64,000 nucleotides of DNA, taken from positions 1,060,501 through 1,124,500 of the forward strand of contig NZ_CP034348.1 of assembly GCF_009762325.1 (NCBI RefSeq), in the 5' to 3' direction. The position numbers and the translations under genes were made by a program. The stretch is from Roseovarius faecimaris. GTDB lineage: Bacteria > Pseudomonadota > Alphaproteobacteria > Rhodobacterales > Rhodobacteraceae. Below are positions 1,274 through 32,563 of this stretch, piece by piece. Positions within the stretch are counted from its first letter, which is position 1. Each line of letters starts with the position of its first letter. The notes beneath the pieces are model-generated. The model searched no databases. It was not told the DNA's origin and saw nothing but the letters and a program-made list of their open reading frames with translations.

Positions 1274-4569
<3,296 letters not shown>

Positions 4570-23333: not shown

Positions 23334-23371
23334 TTTGCAGTTTAGCCTTTTATGCAGGCTATGTTTGCAAA
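23334..23371. promoter_or_regulatory. Putative PccR sites upstream of pccR
   Basis: TTTGCAAA at 23364-23371 and an imperfect TTTGCAGT at 23334-23341 are spaced 30 bp centre to centre in the 73-bp gap in front of pccR. The motif resembles the TTTGCAAA element reported for PccR of R. sphaeroides (recalled, not looked up). Confidence 0.6.
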
Positions 23372-23390: not shown

Positions 23391-24608
23391 TCAGACCCCT
23401 GCGAGCCGCCGTTCGCGCCGTATGGTCAGCCAGATCGCGCCAACCGCCAGAAGCCCGGTGCTCAGCATGATCCACAAAAGGGGGAAGGCCCCCGAGCTTT
23501 CGGTAAGCATTGCTCCGGCCGCGGCGGAAAGAGCAGCGCCACCGCCGATCATGAGCGCCCCGGCAAGCCCCGAGGCTGTGCCCGCAAGATGCGGGCGGAC
23601 CGACAGCGCCCCGGCGGTGGCATTCGGGATCGTCATGCCATTGCCAAGCCCCATGAACGTCATCAGCCCAAAGAAGCTGAGCGCGTTGCCAAGGCCGAGA
23701 TAGAACAAGGACAGGTTGATGGAAATGCCGATAGCATTGAGCAGCGTACCCCAACACACCATCCGGTTGAGCCCGATCCGGGTGGAAAACCGCCCCGAGA
23801 TGAAATTGCCAACGAAGTACCCGATGGCGGGCGCGCCGAAATAGAGACCAAGCTCGGCAGGTGAGAGGCCAAAGACCACATCGCCCACAAACGGCGCCCC
23901 CCCGAGATAGGCAAAGAACGACCCCGAGGACAGCGCAGAGGCCAGGGAATAGCCCCAGAAGCGCGGAGAGGTGAGCAATTCGGGGTATTCCCGGGCCTGC
24001 TCGCGGAAGGTGCGCGATCTGTTTGGCGCCGTTTCGCCCAGATCCGCCCAGGTGAGCCAGAACACCCCGGCCCCGAGGATCAGCAGGGCGACGAAACTGG
24101 CCTGCCACCCAAAGGCCTGATCGAGCCAGCCGCCGAAGGCCGGGCCGATCATCGGAACGACGGCCATGCCCATGGTGACATATCCGATCATGGATGCGGC
24201 CTGTGCATCGGGAACCATATCCCGCACGATGGCGCGGCTTAGCACCATGGCGACCACGATCGTGGCCTGCAGCATGCGGAAAATCAGGAAAACCCACACA
24301 TTGCCAGCCAAAGCACAGCCCAGCGTCGCCAAAAGGAACGTCGCCATTCCGGCGAGGATCACCGGGCGCCTGCCAAGTTTATCGGAGACCGGCCCGATGA
24401 TCAGCTGCAAGACGGCATTGACCCCGAGATAGAGCGCGACCGAAAGCTGGAGCAGGCGGTAATCCGTCTCAAAATACAGTGTCATACCCGGCAGGCTGGG
24501 CAGGAAGATATTCATGGCCAGCGCCGACAACCCCGCGAGCAGGATCAGCGTGAGGATATGCGGGGGGCTGCGTCGATCCAGAAAGCGGACCAATGGCGGA
24601 GTAGACAT
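23391..24608 (-). CDS. Bcr/CflA-type MFS efflux transporter
   Basis: Inner-membrane exporter of the DHA1 drug:H+ antiporter group. The 405-residue protein has about 12 transmembrane helices and the motif-A loop GPVSDKLGRRPVILAG after helix 2. The start MSTPPLVRFLDRRSPP at 24608 is taken over a 12-residue upstream extension because it gives the normal Bcr/CflA N-terminus. It is transcribed away from pccB through the same AT-rich region that carries PccR-like sites, so propionate-dependent control is possible. Substrate unknown. Confidence 0.85.
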   Translation of the reverse strand: MSTPPLVRFLDRRSPPHILTLILLAGLSALAMNIFLPSLPGMTLYFETDYRLLQLSVALYLGVNAVLQLIIGPVSDKLGRRPVILAGMATFLLATLGCALAGNVWVFLIFRMLQATIVVAMVLSRAIVRDMVPDAQAASMIGYVTMGMAVVPMIGPAFGGWLDQAFGWQASFVALLILGAGVFWLTWADLGETAPNRSRTFREQAREYPELLTSPRFWGYSLASALSSGSFFAYLGGAPFVGDVVFGLSPAELGLYFGAPAIGYFVGNFISGRFSTRIGLNRMVCWGTLLNAIGISINLSLFYLGLGNALSFFGLMTFMGLGNGMTIPNATAGALSVRPHLAGTASGLAGALMIGGGAALSAAAGAMLTESSGAFPLLWIMLSTGLLAVGAIWLTIRRERRLAGV

Positions 24609-24662
24609 GAAATACCGGTAGGAGGCTGCGACCCGGAAGTCCATTCATCCGTGAAATAATTA

Positions 24663-24764
24663 GCAAATTTTCAATTATTCAGCCATCTGTTTCCAATAGT
24701 TTGCAAATTTGCCGGATTCTGCTTTGGCCTGAGGCATTCGGACAGTATGGTGCCGCAAATTTGC
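24663..24764. promoter_or_regulatory. Cluster of PccR-like operators before pccB
   Basis: Three GCAAATTTGC-type elements: GCAAATTTTC at 24663-24672 (one mismatch), TTTGCAAATTTGC at 24700-24712, and a perfect GCAAATTTGC palindrome at 24755-24764. They lie in the 181-bp divergent region between the MFS gene and pccB, the last one 26 bp before the pccB ATG. Confidence 0.7.
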
Positions 24765-24789
24765 GCTGACATCATCTACAGGGGACATC

Positions 24790-26322
24790 ATGGAAGATAT
24801 TCTTCAGGTTCTGGAAGACCGCCGCGCCGAAGCGCGCTTGGGAGGGGGCGAACGCCGGGTTGCGTCGCAGCATGAGAAGGGCAAGCTGACAGCGCGCGAG
24901 CGGGTTGAGCTTTTGCTGGACGAAGGCAGCTTTGAAGAGTTTGACATGTTCAAAACCCATCGCTGCACCGATTTCGGGATGGAGAAGTCAAGACCTTATG
25001 GCGACGGCGTGATCACCGGCTGGGGAACGATCAATGGCCGTATGGTCTATGTGTTCAGTCAGGACTTTACCGTGCTGGGCGGTTCCGTCAGCGAGACCCA
25101 CGCCGCAAAAATCTGCAAGATCATGGACATGGCCGTTCAGAACGGCGCGCCGGTGATTGGCATCAACGATTCCGGTGGCGCGCGCATTCAGGAGGGCGTG
25201 GACAGCCTTGCAGGCTATGGCGAAGTCTTCCAGCGCAATATCGAGGCCTCCGGCGTTGTCCCGCAGATCAGCGTGATCATGGGCCCCTGCGCGGGTGGTG
25301 CGGTTTATTCACCTGCGATGACCGACTTCATTTTCATGGTCAAGGACAGCTCTTACATGTTCGTGACCGGCCCTGACGTGGTCAAAACCGTGACCAATGA
25401 ACAGGTGACCGCCGAAGAACTGGGCGGGGCGAGCACCCACACCAGGAAATCAAGCGTGGCCGATGCGGCATTTGAAAACGACGTGGAGGCACTGGCCGAG
25501 GTTCGCCGCCTGGTCGATTTCCTGCCGTCCTCGAACCGTGAAAAACCGCCTGTGCGCCCGTTCTTCGACGAGCCGGGCCGTGTCGAAGACAGCCTTGATA
25601 CGCTGATCCCCGACAACCCGAACACCCCCTATGACATGAAAGAGCTGATCGTCAAACTGGCCGACGAGGGCGATTTCTATGAGCTTCAGGAAGAGTTCGC
25701 CAAGAACATGATCACCGGGTTCATCCGCCTCGAAGGGCAGACGGTGGGTGTGGTTGCCAACCAGCCGATGGTCTTGGCCGGTGTTCTGGATATCGACAGC
25801 GCGCGCAAGGCCGCGCGCTTTGTAAGGTTCTGCGATTGCTTCGAGATTCCGATCCTGACGCTGATCGACGTGCCGGGCTTCCTGCCGGGAACCAGCCAGG
25901 AATATGGCGGTGTGATCAAACATGGGGCCAAGCTGCTCTTTGCCTATGGCGAGGCGACCGTGCCGAAGGTGACGGTGATCACCCGCAAAGCCTATGGCGG
26001 GGCCTATGTGGTGATGAGCTCCAAGCACCTTCGCGGCGATTTCAACTATGCGTGGCCGACGGCCGAGATCGCTGTGATGGGGGCCAAGGGCGCGACCGAA
26101 ATCATCCATCGTGCCGATCTCGGCGATGCCGAAAAGATCGCGGCGCACACGAAGGATTACGAGGATCGTTTCGCCAACCCGTTTGTGGCGGCGGAGCGGG
26201 GCTTCATCGATGAGGTCATCATGCCGCACAGCACGCGGCTACGGGTGAGCCGAGCTTTCGCCTCGTTGCGCAACAAGCAACAGAAGATGCCGTGGAAGAA
26301 GCACGACAACATTCCTCTTTGA
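24790..26322 (+). CDS. pccB: Propionyl-CoA carboxylase beta (carboxyltransferase) subunit
   Basis: Transfers the carboxyl group from biotin to propionyl-CoA to form (S)-methylmalonyl-CoA. The 510-residue protein has the two carboxyltransferase halves, with [20 protein letters not shown] in the first and [16 protein letters not shown] and [18 protein letters not shown] in the second. GGGGAC precedes the ATG. It lies behind PccR-type operators and is separated from pccA by 2.6 kb containing small genes. In the cell it would work with pccA (28934) and feed mcm (33474), with an epimerase elsewhere. Confidence 0.97.
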
Positions 26323-26326
26323 GCCG

Positions 26327-26360
26327 GTTGGCACAGGTTTTCAGGACCTGTGCCGCCAAC
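26327..26360 (+). repeat. Long stem-loop right after pccB
   Basis: GTTGGCACAGGT pairs with ACCTGTGCC-G-CCAAC (one bulged base), beginning 5 bp after the pccB stop. No U-tract follows, so it may protect the 3' end or cause partial termination so that pccB exceeds downstream genes. Confidence 0.6.
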
Positions 26361-26394
26361 TGACCGAGATGAGAAAGGGCTGAGTACGCGAGCC

Positions 26395-26727
26395 ATGGCA
26401 CGCAACCACTGGCATATACTGCATGACGACGGCGCGCTGACAGTTGCGCGCCGGGTGCCGGTGCGGTTTGACCTGGCGGTGTCTACCCGGCTGCCGATGG
26501 GGCGCAAGCTGCGCCTTGCGCAGCAGGTTCGCCAGGATCTGTGGCGGCTGTTGCGCGGGTTGCGTGGCTTTGCGCCCGTGGTGCGTGTTGAGGAACAAAG
26601 CGGCGGCCTGCTGTTGACGGCAGGCGGGCAGGTGGACGGAGATTGGCCCGCCGAAACCGAAAGCCAGATCGCTGCGCTGCTGGCCTGTCCGGCGCGTCGC
26701 GCGCGCTGGCTGAGGTGGGCGGCATGA
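26395..26727 (+). CDS. Unknown 110-residue protein downstream of pccB
   Basis: Not recognised as a named family. The product (MARNHWHILHDDGALTVARR) is basic, without signal peptide or membrane segment. It is mostly alpha/beta in appearance, with an Arg-rich middle (GRKLRLAQQVRQDLWRLLRG) and an ending rich in Arg and Trp (RRARWLRW). ATG 26395 is preferred; an upstream in-frame start adds 15 residues without a better ribosome-binding site. The 3' end overlaps the next gene (ATGA), so the two are coupled. Its setting in a pcc locus is the only hint to function. Confidence 0.65.
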   Translation: MARNHWHILHDDGALTVARRVPVRFDLAVSTRLPMGRKLRLAQQVRQDLWRLLRGLRGFAPVVRVEEQSGGLLLTAGGQVDGDWPAETESQIAALLACPARRARWLRWAA

Positions 26728-27164
26728 TGCGCTATGTCTATCTTGCTGTTGGCCCGCTGGTGGTGATCGCCGTCGGGGCCTGGCTGGTTCTGAGCCTGCC
26801 CGAGGAGGAGGTCAAGGACAGCGCGCGCTCCGGCAGTGCCGGTGTGAGCCTGCCATCGGGGCTTGAGGCGGAACTGCAAGAGATGCTGTGGGACCGGCCG
26901 GGTCAGGGCCTGGTCTACCGGTTCCGCTTTGTTGCGCCTGCGTTTGAGCAGACCGACGATGTCGAGCGGACCATGACCGACCTGGAGCATCTTTGCACCC
27001 ATTTTGCCCTGCCCAAGCTTGCCAATACCGGTCCGTTGCCCAATCAGATCATTATTTCGCTGGCCGACAAACCCTCGGAATTCGGCCAGTACGACGAGAA
27101 TGTCGTCCAGGTTTTCGAAGCGTTCCGGGTCGAAAACGACACCTGTATCTGGGAGGTGTTCTGA
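26724..27164 (+). CDS. Membrane-anchored/exported DUF6497-like protein
   Basis: A 146-residue protein with one N-terminal hydrophobic segment (YLAVGPLVVIAVGAWLVLSL), then a soluble domain. It contains SLPSGLEAELQEMLWDRPGQ and an ending ENDTCIWEVF, which I recall as features of the DUF6497 family of Rhodobacterales; this could not be searched. Two cysteines (HLCTHF and NDTCIW) may form a disulfide in the periplasm. ATG 26724 overlaps the previous stop. Function unknown. Confidence 0.7.
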   Translation: MMRYVYLAVGPLVVIAVGAWLVLSLPEEEVKDSARSGSAGVSLPSGLEAELQEMLWDRPGQGLVYRFRFVAPAFEQTDDVERTMTDLEHLCTHFALPKLANTGPLPNQIIISLADKPSEFGQYDENVVQVFEAFRVENDTCIWEVF

Positions 27165-27378
27165 TGCAACCACAATATGTTGCGGCGCACTCTTCATGTT
27201 CGGCCCTGGTTGAGGCTTTGGCGTCACAAGTGCGCGCTATGGCTTTGAATTCATGTTGTTCTTTCGCCCGATCAGCTATGCTGTCCCTTGGCTGCACGGC
27301 AGCCGTCGAACCCGCGCAAAGCGGGGACCAGCGGGGTCAGCCCCCGCACCCGGTTGCGCAAGAAAACAGGAGCAGTAC

Positions 27379-27525
27379 ATGTCGAACACTCTCAGGACCC
27401 TGGCAGCGCTTGGGCTGGTCGCCTTCGTGGCGGCTTGCGGCGGACAGAGCCAGGAAGAGGACTTTGTCGTGGTGGCGCCCGAGCCCATCTCGGTCGAACC
27501 GGAATACACGGGCAAATACAAATAA
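27379..27525 (+). CDS. Small lipoprotein (48 residues)
   Basis: Starts MSNTLRTLAALGLVAFVAAC, with a clear lipobox (V-A-A-C, Cys20) followed by Gly-Gly, so the mature peptide is only about 29 residues: acidic, with proline and valine. CAGGAG sits 7 nt before the ATG. A longer in-frame extension to 27253 is unlikely. A strong terminator hairpin follows at 27539, making this the last gene of the pccB-proximal unit. The 214 bp before it show no other gene. Function unknown. Confidence 0.75.
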   Translation: MSNTLRTLAALGLVAFVAACGGQSQEEDFVVVAPEPISVEPEYTGKYK

Positions 27526-27538
27526 GCCTTTGACAGGT

Positions 27539-27575
27539 GGCAAGGCGCGGGTGATGTCGCCCGGGCCTTGCCTTG
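27539..27575 (+). terminator. Terminator hairpin after the 48-residue lipoprotein
   Basis: GGCAAGGC pairs with GCCTTGCC, with a further inner CGGG/CCCG stem, 13 bp past the stop at 27525. The following TTGT is a weak U-tract. It closes the transcript that starts at pccB. Confidence 0.7.
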
Positions 27576-27603
27576 TGCGCCCTCTGATCAGGGGGGGCGT
27601 AAG

Positions 27604-27966
27604 ATGCTGAAACATCGTGGTTTCCCGGGGCGTCTGCCCGGAACGGATTATCAATTCACCATACGGCGGGCCAATCCGAAAGGCGTCACGCCGATCAAGG
27701 CACGCGAACGGTTCCGCGACCGGCGTCCGGCTGACCGACGCGCCGATACCGCGTTTGTGCGCGCCCTCTGGGAGGCGTTTGGCAATCAGCCTTTCGAGCG
27801 CGGCAATCTCGATGCAGGACGGTTGAGCTGGCTCTTCGGGCGAGAGGTTCTGCCTGCTGAAGAGCCGTTTGATCCGGAAAGCTACGAAGCCCTGATGGTG
27901 CTCGATGTGGCCGCCGCGCGCGCGTCCTTTCCCCAGGCCTTCGACGACGCGGGAGATGAATGGTGA
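27604..27966 (+). CDS. Unknown conserved-looking 120-residue protein in the pcc locus
   Basis: Begins MLKHRGFPGRLPGTDYQFTI, with no signal peptide and no membrane segment. It is strongly basic at the N-terminal half and acidic toward the end (FPQAFDDAGDEW). A purine-rich GGGGGGGCG lies a few bases before ATG 27604. I do not recognise a domain. It is bracketed by terminators (27539 and 28180), so it may form its own short transcript. Codon use matches neighbours. Confidence 0.65.
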   Translation: MLKHRGFPGRLPGTDYQFTIRRANPKGVTPIKARERFRDRRPADRRADTAFVRALWEAFGNQPFERGNLDAGRLSWLFGREVLPAEEPFDPESYEALMVLDVAAARASFPQAFDDAGDEW

Positions 27967-28145
27967 GGTGGCAGGATCCATTTAAGCCATGCGGCCCGGC
28001 CCGGAATGGCATTTTCTTGCCGATCGACGGCGCGTTTGTGCGGATTGCAGCCGATCCCATAAAAGGGACACGGACGCGGATGGACAGCGCGCAAAAACCA
28101 TGCAGCATGGGGGCTGTAGTACCAGCCCTTCCCCTAGGGGCTCTG

Positions 28146-28180
28146 TTTGCAAGTCTATTCCGTTACCCTTCCCCTATTGG
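28146..28180 (+). promoter_or_regulatory. Shared intergenic module, copy 1 (possible promoter)
   Basis: Contains CTATTCCGT-N4-CTTCCCCTAT-N-GG, the same as at 57530-57564, with 27 of 35 positions identical by direct alignment. TTGCAA and CCCTAT could act as -35/-10 elements. It lies 178 bp before a small lipoprotein gene. Confidence 0.4.
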
Positions 28181-28217
28181 GCGGCCAGCATTCATCCCAA
28201 GCTGGCCGTCCATTTTT
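28180..28217 (+). terminator. Rho-independent terminator upstream of the 28358 lipoprotein
   Basis: GGCGGCCAGC and GCTGGCCGTC form a 10-bp stem (with one G-U pair) around an 11-nt loop, followed by CATTTTTTGC. It would stop transcripts from 27604-27966, or act as an attenuator if transcription starts in the module just upstream. Confidence 0.75.
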
Positions 28218-28357
28218 TGCTTTGAAAACAATGCCTATTGCCGTCAGCGAGCCTTTGCCGAGATTGGTGTTTTGCCGCAAGGCGGCTTGGATCGCCCTCG
28301 GGTAACCCCTATCTCTGCACCTGCGCTCCTGGGGAACTCAACAAGAGGCGATAGACC

Positions 28358-28567
28358 ATGCAGATCAACGTCAAAGCTTTCATACTGGTCCTCGGTTTGG
28401 CCCCGCTTGCGGGCTGCGGCGACACGGCGCTTGAACAGGCCGTGCTTGGCGCAGGTGCCGGTGCGGGCACAGCGGCTATTCTCGACGGCAACATCCTCAC
28501 CGGAGCCGCTGTCGGGGCTGCGGGCAACGTGCTTTACTGCCAGACCGGCAAGAAACGGCGCTGCTGA
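28358..28567 (+). CDS. Small lipoprotein with glycine-zipper segment
   Basis: The 69-residue product starts MQINVKAFILVLGLAPLAGC; the lipobox L-A-G-C gives a lipidated Cys20. The mature part has a Gly/Ala-rich stretch (VLGAGAGAGTAAILDGN and GAAVGAAGNVLY), typical of glycine-zipper outer-membrane lipoproteins, then a Cys-containing basic end (CQTGKKRRC). AAGAGGCG precedes the ATG. It is the second of three tiny lipoproteins between pccB and pccA. Confidence 0.75.
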   Translation: MQINVKAFILVLGLAPLAGCGDTALEQAVLGAGAGAGTAAILDGNILTGAAVGAAGNVLYCQTGKKRRC

Positions 28568-28575
28568 GACCAAGA

Positions 28576-28609
28576 CCCCCCTTGGTGAAGCAATCACGCC
28601 ACAAGGGGG
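28576..28609 (+). repeat. Stem-loop after the glycine-zipper lipoprotein
   Basis: CCCCCTTG pairs with CAAGGGGG around an 18-nt loop, 9 bp after the stop at 28567. No U-tract follows, so its role (3'-end protection or weak termination) is uncertain. Confidence 0.5.
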
Positions 28610-28698
28610 AATGGCCCGCGAAACTTCCCGTTGGCAAAGCGCTTTCAATACAGTAGTTTATGCGCAATGGGGGGCGTCCAAGAAACGAGGCGCCGAAT

Positions 28699-28812
28699 AT
28701 GGGCTATATCAAAGCAGTGTTTCTACTGTCCATGTTGGGGGCGTGTGCCGCGCCCGAAGTGTCGAGCCGCATGGCTTTCGACCCGTACATGATGACACCG
28801 ATCACGAACTGA
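28699..28812 (+). CDS. Tiny lipoprotein, 37 residues
   Basis: ATG 28699 opens a 37-codon frame: MGYIKAVFLLSMLGACAAPE, then VSSRMAFDPYMMTPITN and TGA. It has a short basic start, a hydrophobic core and a lipobox (L13-G14-A15-Cys16), leaving about 22 residues after lipidation. ACGAGG lies about 8 nt before the ATG. It is the last small gene before a strong terminator at 28862 and pccA. The entericidin-like size is suggestive, but no family is claimed. Confidence 0.6.
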   Translation: MGYIKAVFLLSMLGACAAPEVSSRMAFDPYMMTPITN

Positions 28813-28861
28813 TCGGGTGGCCCGGCGCGTATAGCGTCGGACTGGCCGGTCCCAGCAATTT

Positions 28862-28910
28862 GACGAAACGCACGACCTGCAGATCGCGGGCCGTGCGTTT
28901 TGTCGTTTTC
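28862..28910 (+). terminator. Strong terminator just upstream of pccA
   Basis: GACGAAACGCACG pairs with CGTGCGTTTTGTC (13 bp, one G-U pair), followed by GTTTTC. It ends 24 bp before the pccA ATG, leaving no room for a normal promoter after it. It therefore ends the 28699 transcript and may attenuate pccA. Confidence 0.75.
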
Positions 28911-28933
28911 AGACGTCAAACAAGGGGACAGAT

Positions 28934-30979
28934 ATGTTCAAGAAGATCCTGATCGCCAACCGTGGTGAAATCGCCTGTCGGGTCATCAAGACCGCGCGCA
29001 AGATGGGGATTGCGACCGTGGCCATTTACTCTGACGCGGACCGCAATGCGCTGCATGTGAAAATGGCGGATGAGGCGGTGCATATCGGCCCGCCGCCCGC
29101 CTCCGAATCCTACATCGTCATTGACAAGGTGATGGAGGCCATCCGCCAGACGGGGGCCGAGGCCGTGCATCCCGGCTATGGTTTCTTGTCGGAGAACCCG
29201 AAATTCGCCCAGGCGCTTGAAAAAGAGGGCGTCGCCTTTATCGGCCCGCCCGTGGGTGCAATCGAGAGCATGGGCGACAAGATTACCTCGAAGAAGATTG
29301 CGCAGGAGGCCAAGGTCAGCACCGTGCCGGGTGTTATGGGGCTGATCGAAGATGCCGATGAGGCGGTGAAAATCTCTAACGAGATCGGCTATCCGGTGAT
29401 GATCAAGGCCAGCGCCGGGGGCGGTGGCAAGGGCATGCGGATTGCCTGGAATGATGCCGAGGCGCGCGAAGGTTTCCAAAGCTCCAAGAACGAGGCGGCA
29501 AGCTCGTTCGGGGATGACCGGATCTTCATCGAGAAGTTCGTGACGCAACCGCGCCATATCGAGATCCAGGTGCTGTGCGACAGCCACGGCAACGGCGTGT
29601 ATCTGGGCGAGCGCGAATGCTCGATTCAGCGGCGGAACCAGAAAGTGATCGAAGAAGCCCCGAGCCCGTTCCTGGATGAGGCCACCCGCAAGGCGATGGG
29701 TGAACAGGCCGTCGCCCTGGCCCATGCCGTGAACTATGCCAGCGCCGGCACGGTGGAGTTCATCGTCGATGGTGAGAAGAATTTCTACTTCCTCGAGATG
29801 AACACGCGCCTGCAGGTGGAACACCCCGTGACCGAGCTGATCACCGGCGTGGACCTGGTAGAGCAGATGATCCGGGTCGCCGCAGGAGAAAAGCTGCAGC
29901 TTACCCAGGACGATATCAAGCTCGGCGGTTGGGCGGTCGAAAGCCGTCTTTATGCTGAAGACCCTTATCGTGGGTTCCTGCCGTCCATCGGCCGGCTGAC
30001 CCGCTATCGCCCGCCGGTCGAGGTGGCCGCCGGCCCGCTTCTCGACAATGACAAGTGGCAGGACGACGCGATCACCGGCGAAACAGCGGTACGCAACGAT
30101 ACCGGCGTCTATGAGGGCGGCGAGATCAGCATGTATTACGACCCGATGATCGCCAAGCTCTGCACCTGGGCCCCGGATCGGGCAGGCGCGATCGAAGCGA
30201 TGCGCAACGCGCTCGACGGGTTCGAGATCGAGGGGATCGGCCACAACCTGCCGTTCCTGAGCGCTGTGATGGACCATCCCAAGTTCGTTTCGGGGGACAT
30301 GACCACGGCCTTCATCGCCGAGGAGTACCCGGATGGGTTCGAAGGCGTGACCCTGAGCGAAGAGGCGCTGCGCCCGATCGCGGCTTCGGCGGCGGCGATG
30401 CACCGGGTGGCTGAAATCCGGCGCACGCGGATCTCGGGGCGGATGGACAACCATGAACGCCACGTGGGCGAGGATTGGGTTGTTTCGCTGCAGGGTCAGA
30501 GCTACGCAGTGACGATTGCCGCGGACAAGGCGGGCTCGACGGTCAGCTTTGAGGATGGCACCGCGTTGCGGGTCACCTCGGACTGGACGCCGGGCGATCA
30601 GCTCGCGCAGCTCATGATTGATGGCACGCCATTGGTGCTCAAGGTCGGCAAGATCTCGGGTGGTTTCCGTATCCGAAGCCGGGGCGCCGAGCTGAAAGTA
30701 CATGTGCGCACGCCGCGCCAGGCCGAGCTGGCCGCGTTAATGCCCGAGAAACTGCCGCCTGATACATCGAAAATGCTGCTGTGTCCGATGCCCGGTCTGA
30801 TCGTGAAGGTCGATGTGGCCGTGGGCGACGAGGTGCAGGAAGGCCAGGCATTGTGCACGGTCGAAGCAATGAAGATGGAGAACATCCTGCGCGCCGAGAA
30901 GAAGGGCGTTGTCTCGAAGATCAATGCCGGTCCTGGCGACAGCCTGGCGGTGGACGATGTGATCATGGAGTTCGAGTAA
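28934..30979 (+). CDS. pccA: Propionyl-CoA carboxylase alpha (biotin carboxylase/BCCP) subunit
   Basis: Carboxylates its own biotin with ATP and bicarbonate and passes CO2 to PccB. The 681-residue protein has the biotin carboxylase domain (about 1-445; ILIANRGEIACRV, the ATP loop ASAGGGGKGMRIAW, EMNTRLQVEHPVTE), a BT linker region, and a C-terminal biotinyl domain with the AMKM motif, Lys647 as the biotin attachment site. AAGGGG lies about 7 nt before the ATG. Terminator 28862-28910 is immediately upstream, so its promoter arrangement is unusual. Confidence 0.97.
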   Translation: MFKKILIANRGEIACRVIKTARKMGIATVAIYSDADRNALHVKMADEAVHIGPPPASESYIVIDKVMEAIRQTGAEAVHPGYGFLSENPKFAQALEKEGVAFIGPPVGAIESMGDKITSKKIAQEAKVSTVPGVMGLIEDADEAVKISNEIGYPVMIKASAGGGGKGMRIAWNDAEAREGFQSSKNEAASSFGDDRIFIEKFVTQPRHIEIQVLCDSHGNGVYLGERECSIQRRNQKVIEEAPSPFLDEATRKAMGEQAVALAHAVNYASAGTVEFIVDGEKNFYFLEMNTRLQVEHPVTELITGVDLVEQMIRVAAGEKLQLTQDDIKLGGWAVESRLYAEDPYRGFLPSIGRLTRYRPPVEVAAGPLLDNDKWQDDAITGETAVRNDTGVYEGGEISMYYDPMIAKLCTWAPDRAGAIEAMRNALDGFEIEGIGHNLPFLSAVMDHPKFVSGDMTTAFIAEEYPDGFEGVTLSEEALRPIAASAAAMHRVAEIRRTRISGRMDNHERHVGEDWVVSLQGQSYAVTIAADKAGSTVSFEDGTALRVTSDWTPGDQLAQLMIDGTPLVLKVGKISGGFRIRSRGAELKVHVRTPRQAELAALMPEKLPPDTSKMLLCPMPGLIVKVDVAVGDEVQEGQALCTVEAMKMENILRAEKKGVVSKINAGPGDSLAVDDVIMEFE

Positions 30980-30980
30980 G

Positions 30981-31373
30981 ATGCGGCTGTGGCTCGTGGC
31001 GCTGATCTACACGCTGGCTTTCCTGGCTGGCCTGGCGACGCTGTGGGCCGTTACCGTGCTGGCCGTGCTGGACCTCTTCGAGCAGCGAAGTGACAGTCTC
31101 TTCGTATTGCTCATGATCCCGCTGATGGCCGCGCTCGCGGTATTTGCGGTGGTCTATGGTTTGGCGTCCGGGCGGGCGTTGAAGTGGCAATACTGGCTCT
31201 TCGCGCCGCTGGTCATGGCTCTGCTCGCATGGTCCGTGCCAAAGCTGATCCTGTTGGGCTATGCCACGGTTTTCCAAGGCTTTGTGGGGGCGGTCATGCT
31301 GGTCTTTTTCGGCGGCTTTCTGGCCTGCCTGAAACGGGATGGCATCGCGGTGAGCTCTGAGGCGGGGATGTAG
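30981..31373 (+). CDS. Unknown four-helix membrane protein after pccA
   Basis: A 130-residue, very hydrophobic protein (MRLWLVALIYTLAFLAGLAT) with about four membrane-spanning segments and short polar ends; no motif identifies a family. It starts 1 bp after the pccA stop, so it is very likely co-transcribed, with the next lipoprotein gene 10 bp on. The pair sits in the pccA-mcm region, but a link to propionate metabolism is not shown by the sequence. Confidence 0.7.
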   Translation: MRLWLVALIYTLAFLAGLATLWAVTVLAVLDLFEQRSDSLFVLLMIPLMAALAVFAVVYGLASGRALKWQYWLFAPLVMALLAWSVPKLILLGYATVFQGFVGAVMLVFFGGFLACLKRDGIAVSSEAGM

Positions 31374-31383
31374 AAAGGACCAG

Positions 31384-31917
31384 ATGACCCTAACACCTGC
31401 TGCCATACATTCACCCTTTCGCGGGATGAGCGTTGCCATGCTGATGGCCTGCCTCGGCCTTTCTGGCTGTACGCGCATGGACGAAGCGGCGATGCGGGCC
31501 TATGCCGCGCAGTGGTTCCAGCTTGACGAGACGATGGGCTTTGCCGCGACGGGCGGCTGTACATCGGCCGCGTTCCGTCTGGTTGATACGCAGGTGGGCT
31601 CGTCCATGCCCGTGGTTCGCTCGGTCGGTCAGGCCCTGAACCTGATGCAGCAGGCCCGGCCCGTCGCGCTTGACCGGCGCGATCAGGCGCCCGACGCGGG
31701 TATGATCGATCTGGTAAACCTGGACCGCGAGTTGGGTTACCGCATGCGCCGGGCCGCGCTCGAAGGGCGTGGGTGCATGGACGCGGTCACCTCCAGCGCC
31801 TTCGGCTATGCGCTGGTCAATCCGCGGGCGCTTCTGGCTTTCGAACCGGGCGAGGCGGCGCTGATGGTGCTTGACCCGGACACCCGGGTGCTGGTCGTTT
31901 CGATGGGGGAGGGGTGA
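31384..31917 (+). CDS. Lipoprotein of unknown function (177 residues)
   Basis: Signal peptide with lipobox L-S-G-C (MACLGLSGCTRMDEAAMRAY), likely acylated at Cys29. The mature part of about 149 residues has two further cysteines (TGGCTSAAF and GRGCMDAV), which may form a disulfide. GAAAGGACC lies before the ATG. It follows the membrane protein gene by 10 bp and is convergent with the DUF4174 gene, whose stop is 14 bp away. Confidence 0.75.
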   Translation: MTLTPAAIHSPFRGMSVAMLMACLGLSGCTRMDEAAMRAYAAQWFQLDETMGFAATGGCTSAAFRLVDTQVGSSMPVVRSVGQALNLMQQARPVALDRRDQAPDAGMIDLVNLDRELGYRMRRAALEGRGCMDAVTSSAFGYALVNPRALLAFEPGEAALMVLDPDTRVLVVSMGEG

Positions 31918-31930
31918 TGCGCGCGCAGGC

Positions 31931-32386
31931 TCAGTTGATGCCGCGACGGTCGCGAATTTCCTGCTGGCGCATGGGCATCTTGTCAATGACGCGGGATATC
32001 TCGCGTACGTCCCACGGTACGGGCTTGCGCAGCTTGATCATGCCGTCCTTGCCGATCAGGACCAGCATGAAGCCACGCGGATGGAGCGCCTCTCGCAACG
32101 CCGAGTTGGCGGACGGATCCGTGTCGGTCAACACAACCACATCGCGTTCCGCAAGCTCGTCGAGCTCTGCTTCGATGAACTTCATCTGCTGGATGAAACG
32201 TGGATCCTGCGGGCTGTCAGCAAGCACGACGATGGGGCGATTTATCCAAACAAATTCGCTCAAATCCTTCGCATCAGAGCGCAAAACCCCTTGCTCAGCC
32301 GGCGATTGGCCAATGTCTGAGGCGTCCTGTGCAGCCGCGGAGAGCGGCGCAAGTGCCAGAAAAATAAGGACGAATACTCGGCGCAT
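31931..32386 (-). CDS. Secreted DUF4174-like protein
   Basis: A 151-residue protein with a signal peptide (MRRVFVLIFLALAPLSAAAQ) and a thioredoxin-like beta-alpha domain (NRPIVVLADSPQDPRFIQQM, VVVLTDTDPSAN, GFMLVLIGKDGMIKLRKPVP). This matches the DUF4174 family of periplasmic proteins with a thioredoxin-like fold but no CxxC. The start MRRVF at 32386 is preferred over a 21-residue upstream extension. It is transcribed away from the sulfotransferase-like gene. Function unknown. Confidence 0.8.
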   Translation of the reverse strand: MRRVFVLIFLALAPLSAAAQDASDIGQSPAEQGVLRSDAKDLSEFVWINRPIVVLADSPQDPRFIQQMKFIEAELDELAERDVVVLTDTDPSANSALREALHPRGFMLVLIGKDGMIKLRKPVPWDVREISRVIDKMPMRQQEIRDRRGIN

Positions 32387-32563
32387 GGGGTCTCCTGTCT
32401 GCAAGGATATAGGATGTAGCGGTGCGGATGCGAAGGGGAATGAGCCCAACCCCGAAAAAAATTTGGAGTTTAATCGGATTGTGAGAGTTGGAGATCTAGG
32501 ATGAGCCCCGGATCAACCCTCTTATCGCGGCACGCGACCCTGCAAGAAAAGGCTGGCAAACCG

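Follow-up and report, generated by a model that had tools for sequence, protein, structure and literature searches.

In Roseovarius faecimaris the genes for the two subunits of propionyl-CoA carboxylase, pccB and pccA, are separated by 2.6 kb of small genes, and sequence comparison confirmed that this separation is real and family-wide in the Rhodobacteraceae rather than local. The window analyzed is a stretch of 64,000 nucleotides (nt) of the forward strand (assembly GCF_009762325.1, contig NZ_CP034348.1, positions 1,060,501 to 1,124,500), and all coordinates given here are positions within it. The beta subunit gene, pccB (24790..26322, + strand; Pfam Carboxyl_trans, E value 3.5e-198), encodes the carboxyltransferase domain, and the alpha subunit gene, pccA (28934..30979, + strand; PCC_BT, 1e-39), encodes the biotin carboxylase, PCC BT and biotinyl domains, which by Pfam assigns both products to the expected subunits. 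Between the end of pccB at 26322 and the start of pccA at 28934 lie six small open reading frames (ORF1 to ORF6), all on the + strand, an arrangement already described in an earlier sequence-only reading of this DNA. The gap also contains terminator-like hairpins and, downstream of ORF4, a conserved element that is probably a small RNA (sRNA). With conserved small genes, a probable sRNA and stop signals between them, the two halves of the enzyme are therefore probably not simply made from one message. The explanation that we favor, and regard as a whole as somewhat probable, is a pcc locus split by this array, in which the terminators would act, the element would be an sRNA and pccA would be expressed by read-through or from its own promoter.

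Separation of pccB and pccA in the Rhodobacteraceae

The family sample comprised 149 Rhodobacteraceae genomes, that of the window included. A pccA-type match was present in all 149 (E up to 0.001, a threshold at which paralogues count) and a pccB match in 145 (E up to 1e-150). Of the 148 other genomes, 132 contributed one region each, and 16 were excluded for partial, weak or contig-edge matches. Both genes lay on one strand in 131 of the 132 regions, the other (L050) having no pccB. The gap between pccB and pccA in these 131 loci was 385-4224 nt in 123, 193 nt in one and 7-32 nt in seven, with a median of 2091 nt over all of them. Gene order across relatives, proposed in the earlier reading as a check, was thus split in 123 of 131 family loci, with the small genes in one order. 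Of 13 outgroup loci, 10 have the two genes adjacent, with 9-53 nt between the end of pccB and pccA.

Using PccA and PccB together we built a tree of 71 rows (52 of the 124 split loci, eight loci with a gap below 300 nt and 11 outgroups), from which L156 and L160 were excluded for their long branches and in which support was given by the Shimodaira-Hasegawa-like approximate likelihood ratio test (SH-aLRT) only. The split or adjacent label requires seven changes on this tree, and six to eight under other codings: seven without L221 and L159, eight with both coded as split, and six if L146, the second copy in genome G139, was dropped as well. One of the loci, L158, clustered with the outgroups. 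The distribution is readable as one early split followed by several re-joinings, an order that the data do not force. Because pccB and pccA have apparently been re-joined several times, the array would not be needed between them.

Terminator-like hairpins between the subunit genes

The sequence-only reading had listed five hairpins in the gap as several terminators, and each of these was folded against 200 shuffles. All five fold, and two of them look like intrinsic terminators as predicted from the sequence: the hairpin at 28180 (28178..28218, + strand), with a z score of -4.38 and a tail of six T, and the one before pccA (28862..28910, + strand), with a z score of -4.10, a tail of GTTTTC only and the 3' end of its stem 30 nt from pccA. 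The description does not extend to the other three. The hairpin 3' of pccB (26325..26366, + strand, listed at 26327; z -3.26) is without a T run, the one between ORF3 and ORF4 (27539..27572, + strand; z -2.80) has a weak T tail, and the one at 28576 is weak (z -1.47) and does not clearly beat its shuffles. The predicted terminators are the best part of what that reading had observed.

A simple consensus terminator scan (loops of 3-8) of 24500-31500 gave seven sites against 6.8 expected, with no + strand site inside the pccB-pccA gap. Across the split loci we used a relaxed definition (folding free energy, dG, <= -12 and at least 4 T of 8) and a strict one (dG <= -15, 5 T of 8, T at the start of the tail), with the minus strand as control. 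On the + strand, 98 of the 124 split loci have a relaxed hairpin that ends 19-90 nt (median 49.5) ahead of the start of pccA, compared with 42 on the minus strand; for strict hairpins the counts are 48/124 versus 3/124. At least one strict terminator was found between ORF4 and pccA in 80 of 123 loci, versus 10 on the minus strand (102 versus 46 when relaxed), and ORF5 was followed by a terminator-like hairpin (dG <= -15, 4 T) in 75 of 100 loci versus 21. The excess within 200 nt after pccB was small (28/124 versus 15), and after ORF3 the minus strand was the higher (21 on the + strand versus 29 of 95). The stems before pccA differ widely in sequence between loci. Many pccA leaders of the genus loci (L164-L201) also show an apparent second GC-rich hairpin between the terminator and the ribosome-binding site.

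Considering that the subunit genes are separated with terminator-like hairpins between them, balanced expression needs an explanation. The earlier suggestion that separated subunits must be balanced in some other way is therefore well founded as a question, given a family-wide separation in which these hairpins are kept.

A candidate small RNA downstream of ORF4

Between ORF4 and ORF5, a block at about 28120-28217 is nearly unchanged between the window and its closest relative, L163, while the flanks diverge, and the 28180 stem shows compensatory changes between the two. This RNA element, closed by the 28180 hairpin, had been missed by the earlier reading. The candidate sRNA is placed at 28108..28218 (+ strand, 5' end provisional), with a conserved unstructured linker at about 28146-28176 followed by the intrinsic terminator at 28178-28218. 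The sequence CCGTTACCCTTCCCCT, with at most four substitutions, was found in the 330 nt after ORF4 in 69 of 123 ORF4 loci, 24 of them exact, against a chance expectation of about one locus (calculated by hand). The exact 16-mer is present in 30 of 40 same-genus loci, 154-211 nt past ORF4, and missing from four. An exact pattern scan of the genome contigs returned 84 stretches, from which 80 loci were obtained; in 77 of these loci ORF4 precedes the match on the same strand at a distance of 128-219 nt, and in the other three the match lies no more than 142 nt from the edge of the available DNA. Strains of Pseudooceanicola, Octadecabacter and Defluviimonas are among the carriers.

In an alignment of 45 sequences, chosen for at most two substitutions in the 16-mer, the terminator half had a z score below -2 in all 45, and 10 of 10 predicted pairs showed at least one double-sided change, which indicates covariation throughout the stem; the linker was unstructured (mean z -0.03). 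A covariance model of the RNA gave a single match above background in the window, and full-length matches were confined to family genomes among those searched. In a draw of 190 genomes from the class, two of the three family genomes gave full matches, and seven genomes of other families gave partial matches to the terminator part only. Rfam 15 returned no match on 27900-28400 up to an E value of 5, and at the gathering score its only match in the whole window was a tRNA. The conserved C/U-rich stretch together with its terminator is probably a new sRNA family, offered here as a candidate, and an earlier unnamed entry for it in the supplementary tables of sRNA surveys is possible.

Alternatively, the CCGTTACCCTTCCCC stretch could act in cis, in the ORF4 message or at the DNA level, for instance as a C-rich Rho-loading-like site, a stability element of the 3' untranslated region (UTR) or a protein-binding site beside a terminator. 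The narrow range of distances behind ORF4, the C/U-rich and unstructured character of the linker and an upstream hairpin that is not significant are all in agreement with such a role. A Rho-loading site, however, requires a composition and no fixed 16-mer, whereas the exact 16-mer is kept in three quarters of the same-genus loci. The layout of linker and terminator is, moreover, that of the 3'-UTR-derived sRNAs of Rhodobacter sphaeroides in the accessible parts of PMC8625941 and PMC9779115. We hold a cis element to be rather unlikely and prefer the candidate sRNA.

Among known RNAs, the element resembles UdsC of R. sphaeroides, a 67-nt 3'-UTR-derived RNA with the involvement of RNase E, RNase III, PNPase and Hfq, in its short single-stranded part, its intrinsic terminator and its place behind a small gene without a known function (accessible parts of PMC9779115 and PMC8625941). 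UdsC originates from the RSP_7527 transcript of about 300 nt (accessible part of PMC6238624), and identity with it was rejected on transcript length, because ORF4 alone accounts for 363 nt and another 128-219 nt separate it from the element. The CcsR/cuckoo RNAs of alphaproteobacteria carry loops with a CUYCCUCCC motif, and the element is like them in its exposed pyrimidine-rich motif resembling an anti-Shine-Dalgarno sequence. Read by eye, 28108-28218 does not contain CUYCCUCCC, and ORF4, having no Pfam match, is not a recognised DUF1127 protein; this identity was rejected as well.

In many relatives (L034, L056 and L117 among them) the stretch from the ORF4 stop codon to the RNA element contains a second conserved motif, approximately TTGGGCGGGAAnnnGCCGA, at roughly -123 to -106 relative to the RNA anchor. 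The window has only chance-level matches to it with two mismatches, none at the position seen in the relatives.

A putative operator of pccB and the start of pccA

A TTTGCAA-type site, which we take to be the motif of ScfR/PccR regulators, lies upstream of pccB in the window (TTTGCAAA, 24700..24707, strand not assigned). TTTGCAA is enriched there in split loci: 108 of 122 have it in the 200 nt preceding pccB, versus one after shuffling; it is also present upstream of pccB in three of eight non-split loci. When the 800 nt before pccA were divided into 100-nt bins, no bin had the motif in more than four of 120-124 loci. A PccR-type site for pccA was rejected, the final bin having it in four of 124 loci and the other bins being near background. 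Between ORF4 and pccA it occurs in 13 of 123 loci, and the copy at 28146 belongs to the RNA element in the lineage of the window. When columns were counted back from the pccA start, the ribosome-binding site alone was strongly conserved, both in 124 loci and in the 40 same-genus loci; no conserved promoter was found between the last terminator and pccA in these position-fixed columns, which a promoter at variable distance would escape. According to the accessible part of PMC12632250, pccB and possible genes downstream of it are under the control of PccR in Cereibacter sphaeroides. Another TTTGCAA palindrome of the window (23364-23371) lies just beyond the 3' end of a minus-strand gene resembling a major facilitator superfamily transporter (23391-24644).

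These results also bear on a simpler account, in which the array goes back to a single insertion and has simply been retained, both terminators being leaky and pccB, array and pccA still forming one ordinary operon. A PccR-type site upstream of pccB only, array genes that all share one strand and the apparent repeated re-joining of pccBA would be expected under it. It is difficult to reconcile with hairpins that are kept before pccA despite sequence divergence, and with an RNA element almost unchanged between the window and L163, its 16-mer kept across the genus while the flanks diverge. We consider such an accident of insertion unlikely.

Proposed expression of a split propionyl-CoA carboxylase

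In the explanation that we favor, pccB and part of the array would form one transcription unit under the PccR-type site, ending at the terminator of the RNA element. The element would give rise to an sRNA roughly 60-110 nt long in which a CCGUUACCCUUCCCC stretch is exposed; this sRNA would be either the 3' end of the ORF4 transcript or the product of a separate promoter, and the ORF5 message would stop at the next terminator. Expression of pccA would depend on upstream transcripts that escape termination or on a promoter that went unrecognised. Instead of being simply co-transcribed, the subunits would be matched at the level of read-through, translation or protein turnover. Of the 45 loci in the RNA alignment, 27 have the terminator of the element plus a separate one at most 130 nt from pccA. 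A more elaborate scheme, in which ORF4 and the C-rich RNA would be a regulatory module, pccA would be switched by terminator read-through and the alpha/beta ratio would be set by antitermination, seems quite improbable.

Several observations weigh against the favored explanation. Of the 124 split loci, 26 have no called hairpin within 130 nt of pccA, and the control on the minus strand is itself high under the relaxed definition (42/124). The covariance model matched only 70 of the 149 family genomes, nearly always once, and one family genome (G055) has ORF4 without a match to the model. A conserved 5' hairpin in the RNA element was rejected (mean z -1.04, 9 of 45 below -2, the 5' part being variable), and so was the pccA ribosome-binding site as a specific pairing target of the RNA: the mean duplex energy was -15.9 for pccA, -15.3 for shuffled pccA and -16.2 for pccB (45 loci each), and -16.7 for mcm (24 loci). 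Regarding ancestry, the pccB-pccA gap is 329 nt in outgroup L221, pccB was not found within the 1.5 kb flank examined in outgroups L214 and L216, branch support is uneven, and a PccA-only tree (145 rows) was distorted by long branches, with the outgroups falling inside the family.

The closest known locus is the methylmalonyl-CoA pathway locus (pccB, pccA and mcm, with PccR) of C. sphaeroides and Paracoccus denitrificans. In P. denitrificans pccA is Pden_3684 and pccB is Pden_3688, a likeness in that three locus tags lie between them (accessible part of PMC10370305); the accessible parts of PMC10370305 and PMC12632250 do not discuss the inserted genes, the terminators or the RNA element. If the favored explanation is true, each subunit of this obligate heteromeric enzyme comes, in the Rhodobacteraceae, from a transcription unit of its own, a conserved stop dividing the two, and the question of subunit stoichiometry becomes testable through two mapped 3' ends. 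The locus also yields an sRNA candidate without an Rfam entry and ORF4, a deeply conserved orphan protein with a confident model and no clear relative.

Conservation and character of the small genes

Five of the six small genes are widely conserved, contrary to the possibility, raised with the earlier reading, that they are not. Over 132 loci, window included, ORF4 was found in 123, ORF2 and ORF5 in 93 each, ORF3 in 89 and ORF1 in 43, in the constant order 1-2-3-4-5 and always on the + strand, save for duplicate or cross-matched lipoprotein hits (e.g. L062). Pfam gave no match for ORF1, ORF3, ORF4, ORF5 or ORF6. ORF1 (26395..26727), an orphan of 110 amino acids also without an NCBIfam match, overlaps ORF2 in the sequence ATGA. 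ORF2 (26724..27164), with a hydrophobic N-terminus, belongs to DUF6497 (PF20107, E 1.4e-40; 138.3 bits against a gathering score of 24.3), a family of which the literature searched makes no mention. Its Cys91 and Cys141 are invariant in 45 aligned sequences, and the best Protein Data Bank (PDB) row for its model was 4lg3 (E 0.03).

Three tiny lipoproteins had been proposed, and a lipobox-like Cys is indeed present in ORF3, ORF5 and ORF6. The claim stands for ORF3 (27379..27525, 48 amino acids) and ORF5 (28358..28567, 69 amino acids, with a Gly-rich tail), both predicted small lipoproteins with a hydrophobic N-terminal stretch up to a lipobox Cys20 that is invariant in 20 and 25 aligned sequences, respectively. 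For ORF6 (28699..28812, 37 amino acids) the Cys can be compared in a single relative: this lipoprotein-like ORF has no match in the other 131 loci (E 1e-4) and one among the 40 genus loci, in L163, with 84% identity over 37 codons and 10 synonymous and six non-synonymous changed codons.

ORF4 (27604..27966) encodes an orphan protein of 120 amino acids, not lipoprotein-like, with 43-81% identity to the window copy in 80 aligned relatives. It occurs once per genome in 61 of 61 genomes of a draw from the order, all of which proved to be Rhodobacteraceae, and has no match in the other 187 genomes of the class draw (20 of them listed, all of other families), being family-restricted in the samples searched. 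Its differences from L163 by codon position (17, 9 and 66) point to purifying selection. The predicted model is confident (predicted local distance difference test score, pLDDT, 93.9; predicted template modelling score, pTM, 0.86), and searches for a related fold gave nothing clear: the best E value was 3.6 with Foldseek and 0.35 for a profile against PDB sequences, and VIA-align reached a best Z of 3.8, with MarR-type rows at 2.6-3.6. These weak structural rows are often winged-helix regulators, which is a hint only.

Nine genomes have no ORF4 in the gap. It lies elsewhere in G077, G107, G127 and G085 and beside the second pcc copy in G139, and was not found in G017, G059, G014 and G083. G077 and G107 carry the array and pccA on different contigs, and their pccBA is a tight pair; pcc is also tight in G017 and G059. 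The relocated block of G077 comprises a DUF6497-like gene, ORF4, the RNA element and an ORF5-like gene, and that of G107 comprises ORF4, an ORF5-like gene and then a minus-strand gene resembling 31931-32449 of the window (read by eye, the RNA also by covariance model). Because of these blocks the array can be regarded as a unit of its own. G139 has two pcc loci (contigs C186 and C368), one tight and one next to ORF4, through paralogy or contamination.

The sequence-only reading had taken the small genes for an envelope function tied to propionate use. An envelope location is plausible for ORF2, ORF3 and ORF5, considering the conserved lipobox Cys of the latter two and the hydrophobic start and two invariant Cys of ORF2, and most split loci do have the array together with pcc. 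As a general rule the link to propionate finds no support: it is weak because array and pcc occur apart, as in G077 and G107, with the array on a different contig from pccA, and in G017 and G059, with a tight pcc pair and no ORF4 found. ORF4, the most widely kept gene, is moreover not of the lipoprotein kind. An envelope module functionally linked to propionate use appears very improbable.

Compared with the window, L163 has approximately 0.6 kb extra between pccB and ORF1 (3220-3900 of that locus). Beyond pccA the window has two further small genes (30981-31917) without a Pfam match, with matches in 3 and 17 of the 132 loci, window included, a conservation far below that of the array preceding pccA.

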